Source: Actinomycetota bacterium (lineage in GTDB: Bacteria; Actinomycetota; Actinomycetes; S36-B12; UBA5976). From it: a DNA stretch of 57,170 nt. The stretch spans positions 1 to 57,170 of the forward strand of contig CANFOW010000007.1 of the NCBI GenBank assembly GCA_947448865.1, given 5' to 3'. The notes under the pieces are model-generated. The model was not told where the DNA came from, did not search any database, and worked only from the letters and a program-made list of their open reading frames with translations. Numbering within the stretch: the stretch's first letter is position 1; each line of letters begins with the position of its first letter. Made by a program: the position numbers and the translations under genes. Below are positions 7,166 through 10,140 of this stretch, one piece after another.

Positions 7166-7171
7166 GTGGAC

Positions 7172-7768
7172 ATGAGAAAGAAAAACGCTCTAGTTGCAAC
7201 CGTGTCCGTTCTTACTGGCTTGGTTGTGGCTTTGTCGTCGACCAGCGCAATGGCTTACCCGCCAGGTGCAAGTTTGGCCGCTAGCGTTACGCCCGATCAG
7301 GTTAAAGCAGGTTCTTCAACCATACTAAACGTGACAAATGGTGAAATCTCAAAAGCTTTTTCGTACCGAATTGGTTCTGGTTCAGTAAATTCATCGAATA
7401 AAACTGGTCCACTGGGAACAAAATCCATTCAGATTAAAGCTCCTACAAACCCAGGCATCTATGTTGTAACTGTTTCTCAGAAGTTCAACGGAGCTGCTAA
7501 TGCATCCCAGGCTACTGCGACGCTCTATGTTCCTCGCGTGACAGTTCCTACAACTGCTCGCGTGAACCGCAGCATTAACGTTTTAGTAGCGAATGCAAAA
7601 ACTGGAACACACGTAACGGTGACAGTTGGCTCCGGAACGCCACAGCAAGTTGATGTCGCATCTCACAGCGCTACGGTGTCAGTAGCGTTTGCACTTAAAG
7701 GTCGTCAGACAGTCACGGTTACCGTCGGCAGTTTGGTCTACACATCTACTGTGAACGTCTCGCGTTAA
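7172..7768 (+). CDS. Secreted Ig-like beta-sandwich protein
   Basis: 198 residues. A classical signal peptide begins MRKKNALVATVSVLTGLVVA and ends near STSAMA-YPPG. The mature part is Thr/Val/Ser-rich with alternating hydrophobic strands such as GIYVVTVSQKFNG and ATLYVPRVTVPTTARVNRS, consistent with one or two bacterial Ig-like domains (about residues 35-125 and 125-198). No catalytic residues or LPXTG anchor are seen. It precedes the tyrosine autokinase by about 200 bp in the same orientation; a cell-surface link is plausible but unproven. Confidence 0.65.
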   Translation: MRKKNALVATVSVLTGLVVALSSTSAMAYPPGASLAASVTPDQVKAGSSTILNVTNGEISKAFSYRIGSGSVNSSNKTGPLGTKSIQIKAPTNPGIYVVTVSQKFNGAANASQATATLYVPRVTVPTTARVNRSINVLVANAKTGTHVTVTVGSGTPQQVDVASHSATVSVAFALKGRQTVTVTVGSLVYTSTVNVSR

Positions 7769-7966: not shown

Positions 7967-9382
7967 ATGGAGTTGCAGGAATATTTACGCACTCTTCGCA
8001 AGCGTTGGAAAACGATTTCACTCGTGCTGTTTTTAACAGTATTAATTTCCGGCGCGGTAACCATTGCAACGCCTAAAGCATATGTTTCTAATGCCCAGTT
8101 ATTTGTTGCCACCTCCGGATCTAGTAGCGACATTGGTAACGTGCTCACTGGTGCTCAGTTTTCAAGTCAACGAGTAAAGACGTATACGCAGCTAGTGAAA
8201 ATGCCACAGGTACTTGCACCTGTTTCTGCTGCACTGGGCTACGAAGTTACTAAGGAAGAAGTAACAGCGACGAGTCCACTCGACACTGTGCTTATAAATA
8301 TTGCAGTCTCAAACCATGATCCCGCTCGTGCTATCGCTATCGCTGATGCCGTATCAATACAGCTCGCAAAAGTAATTCAGGAACTCGAGACGCCTCTATC
8401 AGTCGGCGGAAGTAGCCCCGTAAAGGCAACAGTTGTTCAGCAAGCCAGCACACCAGATGGTCCAAGTTCTCCTCGGCCCGTGTCCAATGTGATTTTAGGC
8501 ATTTTGCTGGGGGCACTCCTAGGTGTTGGAATTGCAATATTGCTTGAGACTCTCGACAACACAGTTAAAGCGTTTGACGATGTGGTCAAGGCGACCGGAA
8601 TCAACCCGATAGGAATTATTGGATTTGATCCAGGCGCGAAATCAAGTCCAATTGCAGCGTTGAATCAGCGAAGCGTCCGTTCAGAAGCATTCAGAACCTT
8701 ACGAACTAACCTGCAGTTTGTTGATGTCGATAAGCCACCACATGTCTTCGTGATTTCTAGTGCGTTGCCGGATGAAGGAAAGTCAACGACGTGCTTGAAC
8801 TTGGCGATTGCATTTGCGCAATCTGGTGCCAAGGTGTGCTTGGTTGATGCGGACCTCAGGAAGCCAAGTCTGGCAGGCTACCTCGGAATTGATGGTGGGC
8901 TTGGTCTGACAAATATTCTGGCTGGTCAAGTAAAACTAGAAGATGCCTTGGTTCTGTGGAACCGTGAATTGATGACAGTACTTCCGTCGGGGCCAACACC
9001 ACCAAATCCAAGCGAATTACTTGGTAGTAAGCAAATGTCAGCGTTACTAGAACAGCTTCGTAAAGAGTTCGATTACGTCATCATCGATGGTGCGCCACTG
9101 TTGCCAGTAACAGATTCGGCTATCCTCGGGCGATTGACGGACGGAATTATTTTTGTGGTTCGTTTTGGTAAAACTACTCACGAACAAATTCAGCGCACAA
9201 TTGAATCCCTTGCGATTGTTGAAGCTCACCTGCTCGGACCAGTGGTTAATTTTGTGCCGAGTGGTTCCGCAGGGTATGGCTACGGGTATGGCTACGGGTA
9301 TGGCTACGGGTATGGCTACGGGTATGGCCTCCAAGATTCTGTAGATATTTCTGACAAAGCGGTTTCTGGTAACACCGAGTAG
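7967..9382 (+). CDS. Chain-length regulator / tyrosine autokinase (Wzz-BY-kinase fusion) with Gly-Tyr repeat tail
   Basis: 471 residues, ATG with GAGGAG upstream. An N-terminal Wzz-type part has membrane segments at about 17-37 and 174-194 enclosing an extracytoplasmic region. The cytoplasmic part is a P-loop BY-kinase: Walker A in SSALPDEGKSTTCLNLAIA, Walker A' VCLVDADLRKPS, Walker B YVIIDGAPLL. The C-terminus carries (Gly-Tyr)9 encoded by 12-bp repeats, then a short acidic tail. BY-kinases autophosphorylate on C-terminal tyrosine clusters to control capsule or exopolysaccharide polymerisation. Here the kinase and Wzz halves are fused, as in proteobacterial Wzc and some actinobacteria. A tyrosine phosphatase gene follows. 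No glycosyltransferases are present nearby. Confidence 0.9.
   Translation: MELQEYLRTLRKRWKTISLVLFLTVLISGAVTIATPKAYVSNAQLFVATSGSSSDIGNVLTGAQFSSQRVKTYTQLVKMPQVLAPVSAALGYEVTKEEVTATSPLDTVLINIAVSNHDPARAIAIADAVSIQLAKVIQELETPLSVGGSSPVKATVVQQASTPDGPSSPRPVSNVILGILLGALLGVGIAILLETLDNTVKAFDDVVKATGINPIGIIGFDPGAKSSPIAALNQRSVRSEAFRTLRTNLQFVDVDKPPHVFVISSALPDEGKSTTCLNLAIAFAQSGAKVCLVDADLRKPSLAGYLGIDGGLGLTNILAGQVKLEDALVLWNRELMTVLPSGPTPPNPSELLGSKQMSALLEQLRKEFDYVIIDGAPLLPVTDSAILGRLTDGIIFVVRFGKTTHEQIQRTIESLAIVEAHLLGPVVNFVPSGSAGYGYGYGYGYGYGYGYGYGLQDSVDISDKAVSGNTE
9272..9328 (+). repeat. 12-bp tandem repeat (gggtatggctac), 4.75 copies, encoding (Gly-Tyr)9
   Basis: Four full copies of gggtatggctac followed by gggtatggc, without mismatch, inside the 3' end of the kinase gene. 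Every copy is in frame and alternates the Tyr codons tat and tac. Perfect repeats of this length can change copy number by slippage, always in steps of two Gly-Tyr pairs. Confidence 0.97.
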
Positions 9383-9489
9383 AGTGTGGATGTGGGTTGC
9401 TTGCGGTAATTTTCGCCAGTAATCATTAACTATTCGGGGGAATAGCGGTCGCCAAGGACTTGGTGACAACACGACCTGGATGGGATCTG

Positions 9490-10140
9490 ATGGCACCGAG
9501 AATTCTCATCGTGTGCACTGCAAATGTGTGCAGAAGCCCTTATGCGGCCGACAAATTACGCACGAGTCTGAGTGCCGATCCGAGCACAGCAGCTCTTGAA
9601 TTTATCGTTGAGTCTGCTGGGACTCATGCAGTTGATGATCAAAGTTACTGCCAGATGGCAACGAAGCGAATAGGCGAGCAGCATCAGGGAGTTTCGCGCC
9701 ATCTCGAATCAGTAGATTTGGGCACCTTTGATTTGATTTTGACCATGAGCAGAAATCAACGTGGCGAAATTGTGCGACTAGCACCGCAATTGCGGTCGCG
9801 TATTTACACATTGGTTGAAGTGTCGCGCCAAGCCTATGGAATAACACAAGACGGCCAGGCCCTTGATGTTGCTCGTGGAAAAAGTCGCCCCAAAGACACG
9901 GGCCATTCGCGTCAACATGTTGAACTGCTGCCCAGTGGTAATCAAGACCGTTGGAACTGGCTCCTTGAGGAAATGAACGCTTGGCGGGGCTTCTTTGCCG
10001 GCGGAGTTGCCAGACATCAATCCCTTGACGTCAATGACCCACATATTGTGTCAAAAGACATTCACGACGACACATTCGAAATTATTGACGAAGCGATTGC
10101 CGCATTCGTAAAAGCTTTATCTGCGACCTTAAACGCATAA
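9490..10140 (+). CDS. Low-molecular-weight protein-tyrosine phosphatase
   Basis: 216 residues from ATG 9490; an upstream GTG at 9460 is in frame, but the P-loop then falls unusually far from the N-terminus. The catalytic CX5R loop is VCTANVCRSP (Cys9, Arg15 from ATG 9490). The late NDPH segment supplies the likely general-acid Asp, followed by the usual helix (FEIIDEAIAAFVKAL). It lies just downstream of the tyrosine autokinase, matching the kinase/phosphatase pairs that cycle phosphate on BY-kinases. Length exceeds the family norm (about 150-165) because of insertions between residues about 100 and 180, including RGKSRPKDTGHSRQH. The target is inferred from context. Confidence 0.85.
   Translation: MAPRILIVCTANVCRSPYAADKLRTSLSADPSTAALEFIVESAGTHAVDDQSYCQMATKRIGEQHQGVSRHLESVDLGTFDLILTMSRNQRGEIVRLAPQLRSRIYTLVEVSRQAYGITQDGQALDVARGKSRPKDTGHSRQHVELLPSGNQDRWNWLLEEMNAWRGFFAGGVARHQSLDVNDPHIVSKDIHDDTFEIIDEAIAAFVKALSATLNA

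Follow-up and report, generated by a model that had tools for sequence, protein, structure and literature searches.

A tandem repeat in an actinobacterial gene for a bacterial tyrosine kinase (BY-kinase) encodes an uninterrupted run of alternating glycine and tyrosine near the C-terminus of the protein, which raises the question of whether the repeat is a device for changing the number of phosphosites or simply the coding sequence of a phosphorylation tail. The window is the whole stretch of DNA that was analyzed, 57,170 nucleotides of contig CANFOW010000007.1 of an Actinomycetota bacterium. The first-pass annotation of this DNA had proposed that the copy number of the repeat can change in frame by slippage, as a contingency-like control that is unusual on this protein type. 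The results presented here are best explained if the tract is a phosphorylation tail of the ordinary kind, long and register-degenerate, which is DNA-pure and belongs to a common tail type. The contingency claim for the repeat is unsupported.

The kinase gene, its repeat array and its neighbourhood

The features discussed in this manuscript are collected in Table 1. The open reading frame (ORF) that carries the repeat is a capsule-type bacterial tyrosine kinase with its motifs intact. Profile searches with this ORF gave a TIGR01007 match of 175.8 bits (cut-off 108.05) and a Wzz (PF02706) match of 41.3 bits (cut-off 25.5), and the GNVR domain stayed under its cut-off (20.7 versus 27.7 bits). 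In an alignment with Wzc of E. coli K-12, residues K272, D294/D296/R298 and D374 correspond to K540, D562/D564/R566 and D642 of Wzc. The Walker A' motif (DADLR, residues 294-298) and the Walker B residue (Asp374) both lie downstream of Walker A. EX2RX2R is the oligomerisation motif of BY-kinases, and its residues E240, R243 and R246 are kept in 190/190, 190/190 and 188/190 homologs, respectively. A phmmer search of the PDB matched BceF, CapAB, Etk and Wzc, with E-values down to 2.4e-40. The AlphaFold2 model, built from 28 aligned sequences, has a mean pLDDT of 83.3, and its best Foldseek matches were chains of the Wzc octamer (E 3.6e-30). The model contains long helices at residues 14-34 and 171-196, which are read as transmembrane helices. 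Residues 434-471, which follow the last kinase strand, have a pLDDT below 50 and are predicted to form a disordered tail.

Table 1. Coordinates of the kinase gene, its motifs, the repeat array and the adjoining genes in the window
Feature	Position	Strand	Basis
Small predicted secreted protein (AYPPG...)	7166-7768	+	Upstream of kinase
Wzz (PCP) and BY-kinase fusion, Wzc-type, 471 aa	7967-9382	+	TIGR01007, PF02706, AlphaFold2, Foldseek
EX2RX2R motif (E240, R243, R246)	8684-8704	+	Identical to Wzc E508, R511, R514
Walker A Lys272-Ser273 (in ALPDEGKST)	8780-8785	+	Alignment to E. coli Wzc
Perfect 12-bp tandem repeat, unit GGGTATGGCTAC x4.75	9272-9328	+	Tandem Repeats Finder
LMW tyrosine phosphatase, 216 residues	9490-10140	+	PF01451 52.1 bits (cut-off 23.2); CTANVCRS active-site signature

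Tandem Repeats Finder reported the array with a period of 12, 4.8 copies and 100% matches, and with the highest score among the 10 arrays in the window. The array is in frame in the kinase ORF and codes for residues 436-454, which read (Gly-Tyr)9-Gly, and 17 residues follow before the end of the protein, so that the tract is near the C-terminus and not at it. The nine tyrosines within these residues constitute the C-terminal tyrosine cluster of the kinase. Thus, the perfect 12-bp repeat, its (Gly-Tyr)9 product, the BY-kinase label and the position of the tract at the place of the tyrosine cluster, all of which were part of the first-pass annotation, were borne out. An antisense ORF at 9047-9496 was rejected as a gene; its VAIP repeat is a mere reverse complement of the array.

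The gene for the low-molecular-weight (LMW) phosphatase begins 107 bases downstream of the kinase gene. The PF01451 match covers only residues 5-110 of this protein, and its C-terminal part lies outside the match. The small protein encoded upstream of the kinase matches no Pfam or NCBIfam family. Two congeners (L170 and L171) have weak homologs of it (tblastn E 1e-5 to 1e-3) next to their kinase and phosphatase genes, and the small secreted protein, the kinase and the phosphatase are possibly a conserved module. A scan of 81 loci, most of them with flanks of about 1.5 kb and six with longer neighbourhoods, found the phosphatase signature in 13.

In four congeners, the kinase is surrounded by polysaccharide genes, as judged for two of them from ORFs alone. 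For example, L170 and L171 have the kinase with the phosphatase, the secreted proteins of weak similarity and sugar-nucleotide genes (Pfam for L170 only), in L168 its neighbours are a priming sugar transferase and an acyltransferase, and L169 has a gene order like that of L168 from inspection of its ORFs. In the window genome, the kinase is outside the sugar cluster; another contig carries sugar-nucleotide genes together with glycosyltransferases and a priming sugar transferase. A Wzy polymerase was sought in this genome (88.4% complete) and none was identified; the sole Wzy_C match was below the cut-off and looks like a heme A synthase, and two proteins of contig C10 were without a Pfam match in this search.

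Tyrosine tails of related kinases and a ratchet model

Kinase homologs occur in 7 of the 43 genomes of the family (at E 1e-20), in 23 of 166 from the order and 160 of 393 from the class (both at E 1e-40), and in 116 of 195 from one other genus (at E 1e-85). From the same class 195 homologs were fetched, 194 of which had a usable tail as delimited by an alignment rule. At least three tyrosines were present in 190 of the 194 tails and at least one YxY in 182. A strict (GY)4 or longer run was present in 119 tails and a run of at least nine units in 9. All four fractions are biased upwards because the ranking query included the tail. Within the genus of the window, the runs have lengths of 7, 9, 10, 10, 15 and 16. 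In one congener (G032) there are two BY-kinases, L003 with n=10 and L009 with n=7 in the tail.

A second set of homologs was found by peptide patterns from outside the tail. It contained 17 distant homologs from other phyla (Clostridia, Bacteroidetes and others; E 1e-25 or better, 26-37% identity), and 10 of these also carry a strict (GY)4 or longer run. Thus, the (GY)n tail recurs across phyla, and the proposal that such a tract is unusual on this protein type was refuted. A search of open-access papers found no description of (GY)n tails on BY-kinases.

Consecutive tyrosines are exactly two residues apart in 531 of 642 intervals in 125 tails, compared to 173.5 expected. The same spacing is enriched in the 42 tails without a (GY)3 run (92 of 171 intervals versus 44.8 expected), and the window tail is an unbroken Y-x-Y series throughout (GY)9. 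This spacing of two agrees with the YxY ratchet published for Wzc of E. coli. According to PMC11986026 and PMC8285477, the tail of E. coli K30 Wzc enters the active site of a neighbour with the tyrosine at i-2 in a pocket, phosphorylation proceeds from C to N, and the octamer disassembles at the fourth phosphate. In PMC11986026, YxY is the register read by the Wzc active site together with the tyrosine pocket. A review (PMC12220298) states that what counts is overall phosphorylation and not any individual tyrosine, and that the tyrosines are poorly conserved in number and arrangement.

The (GY)9 tract very probably forms the C-terminal tyrosine cluster of a polysaccharide co-polymerase and BY-kinase of the Wzc type and serves as a ratchet tail that the phosphatase resets. 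We infer phosphorylation, the ratchet and an effect on the polymer, and autophosphorylation of the cluster is predicted. Since the i-2 tyrosine sits in the pocket, strict Gly-Tyr alternation would make each two-residue step an equivalent YxY register. The (GY)9 tract would then act as a ratchet track that is uniform along its length and offers as many as nine phosphosites. The adjacent LMW phosphatase would reset the phosphorylation of the tail, and the resulting cycle of kinase assembly and disassembly may control Wzy-dependent polysaccharide synthesis. Selection keeps the peptide, and the unit number drifts slowly between species.

When the Wzc pocket residues (534-536, 645-647, E675 and S679) were aligned, P536, P645 and L647 were found to be kept. 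S679 corresponds to Thr411 in the window kinase and to Ala in 148 of 190 homologs. E675 corresponds to Gln407, which is Gln in 170 of 190 homologs, and the acidic Glu406 is merely adjacent. In Wzc, E675 is the acidic pocket residue proposed to exclude phosphotyrosine; thus Gln at this position counts against a simple transfer of the Wzc model. Two further points weigh against the ratchet reading, the location of the window kinase outside the sugar cluster and the fact that the search of this genome identified no Wzy polymerase.

The same tract could be viewed as a flexible or sticky low-complexity linker for interaction or condensation, with its phosphorylation incidental. The low pLDDT across the whole tail would agree with such a role, and a composition rich in Gly and Tyr is also found in adhesive and condensing proteins. 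Against a linker stand the enrichment of two-residue spacing in tails that have no GY runs, the phosphatase gene that adjoins the kinase gene, and the match of YxY to the register described for the Wzc active site and pocket in PMC11986026. The linker is considered very unlikely, and the phosphorylation tail is retained as the preferred reading.

Codons and copy number of the Gly-Tyr tracts

More than one GGNTAY hexamer was found in 105 of the 120 tracts with n of at least 4. The synonymous codons are thus scrambled while Gly-Tyr is kept, so selection acts on the peptide. Among kinase pairs, which are not independent of each other, n was equal in 15 of 19 pairs with at least 95% kinase identity and off by one in the other 4, and the codons often differ. 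Pairs with equal n and different codons include L003 with L004 (n=10 in each) and L225 with L226 (n=6 in each). At 90-95% kinase identity, n was equal in 20 of 35 pairs, off by one in 10 and off by two in 5. The unit number thus does drift between species, at a slower pace than the codons change.

The order of the codons was analyzed in 73 non-redundant tracts, with the window excluded. Compared with permuted tracts, adjacent units were less alike (z -5.9 at a lag of 6 bp) and units two apart more alike (z 4.2 at a lag of 12 bp). The low likeness of adjacent units is due to the Gly codons, which were identical between neighbours in 137 of 341 cases versus 176.5 expected (z -6.2), and not clearly to the Tyr codons (235 of 341 versus 243.1 expected, z -1.6), which do not clearly deviate. 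Gly-x-Gly elsewhere in the same kinase genes showed no such avoidance (z +1.5), and the Gly-codon effect was stable at four redundancy thresholds. The effect is an alternation of Y-ending (GGC/GGT) with R-ending (GGG/GGA) Gly codons (z -5.9), with no clear deficit inside either class. GGT is almost missing, with 14 of the 684 Gly codons in the tracts versus 861 of 5669 elsewhere. Alternation of Gly tRNAs or protection against slippage could explain this pattern. Among the 120 homologous tails, the alternation can be observed in the (GY)n tracts of L003, L088 and L205, for example. Recurrent 6-bp slippage was rejected as a general origin of the tails; adjacent units are unlike, the tracts are mixed and n is stable in close pairs.

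The window array was compared to this background. None of 5000 within-tract codon permutations matched its 12-bp periodicity, and with synonymous codons sampled from elsewhere in the kinase gene, which offers few of them (33 Gly and 6 Tyr), a perfect 12-bp periodicity has a probability of about 1e-6. The array is among the longest pure arrays of the 120 tracts (54 bp within GY, tied by L069). In the window tract the Tyr codons alternate too, in step with the Gly codons, which speaks for 12-bp duplication in the past of this tract, and the rank of the array among the purest of the 120 makes a recent duplication plausible. The perfect array reflects local duplication and/or the family habit of alternating Gly codons. 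A duplication of 12 bp is a possible past event and does not count as evidence of switching. A kinase of another genus in the family (L007, G019:C2:10091-11464; 48% identity) has the GGGTATGGCTAC unit over 36 bp of its tail, preceded by other Gly/Tyr-rich repeats.

These results bear directly on the proposed contingency-like locus, in which 12-bp slippage would change the number of phosphosites in frame and tune polysaccharide length within a population. One part of the proposal stands, as the repeat lies in frame and copies might in principle be added to it or lost from it. The array is also perfect and among the longest pure ones, and n does differ between species, by one or two units in 15 of the 35 pairs at 90-95% identity. 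The copy-number comparison across related genomes, which the first-pass annotation had named as a check, likewise gave n of 7 to 16 in the genus. However, control by slippage was not supported. First, n is equal in most pairs at 95% identity or above, often with different codons. Secondly, the unlikeness of adjacent units is the opposite of what recurrent 6-bp slippage produces. Third, the mixed codons of most tracts mean that the repeats of relatives are not homogenised by slippage. Lastly, a unit of 12 bp is a multiple of three, so a change of copy number cannot alter the frame or switch the gene off, and tail length alone could change. A contingency function is therefore very unlikely.

The contig is probably metagenome-derived and belongs to a draft genome of 105 contigs at the completeness given above, and short-read assembly can collapse or mix perfect arrays, so that part of the copy number seen in the window could stem from assembly or consensus errors. 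Such an artefact is extremely unlikely, as the 57-bp array is shorter than common reads and the congeners have n of 7, 10, 10, 15 and 16, mostly in tracts of mixed codons, which are hard to collapse.

A broader proposal, which is speculative and unlikely, is that strict (GY)n tails are convergent register-degenerate ratchet tracks in which n would act as a phosphorylation timer that determines for how long the kinase-polymerase ring remains assembled. In lineages such as that of the window, long DNA-pure arrays would allow fast in-frame changes of n that tune polymer length, and most relatives would damp this mutability by Gly-codon alternation.

For the preferred reading as a phosphorylation tail, the natural tails (n of 2 to 16, with two-residue spacing nearly everywhere) are a ready series for testing the Wzc ratchet, and the question for this series is whether octamer lifetime and polymer length are set by how many YxY steps a tail contains. 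The family-wide alternation of Gly codons is a small regularity with a bearing on the bacterial encoding of repetitive peptides.

Comparison with known systems

The window kinase resembles Wzc and Etk of E. coli (PCP-2a BY-kinases) in that a Wzz-type part, two predicted transmembrane helices, a BY-kinase domain and a YxY-rich C-terminal tail are combined in one polypeptide. As with Wzc and Wzb of E. coli, a phosphatase gene adjoins the kinase gene. However, the extracytoplasmic part is shorter than that of Wzc, with about 135 residues between the predicted helices, the tail is a strict (GY)9 whereas that of Wzc is mixed, and the pocket residue E675 is replaced by Gln.

The kinase domain of the model also fits CapAB of Staphylococcus aureus (2VED/3BFV), with an rmsd of 1.9 A and 33% identity. 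In Gram-positive systems, CapA and CapB are two distinct polypeptides, whereas the window protein is fused, and the tyrosine tail of CapAB is much shorter than that of the window kinase. Morona and colleagues reportedly described, in 2003, a (YGX)4 repeat domain at the C-terminus of CpsD, an autophosphorylating tyrosine kinase of Streptococcus pneumoniae. Unlike the tract in the window, the CpsD repeat has a period of three residues and few units. The other (GY)n BY-kinases of the same class and of Clostridia and Bacteroidetes have the tail type of the window kinase, with n of 4 to 16; those tracts are mostly shorter and have mixed codons, whereas the window array is DNA-pure at 12 bp.
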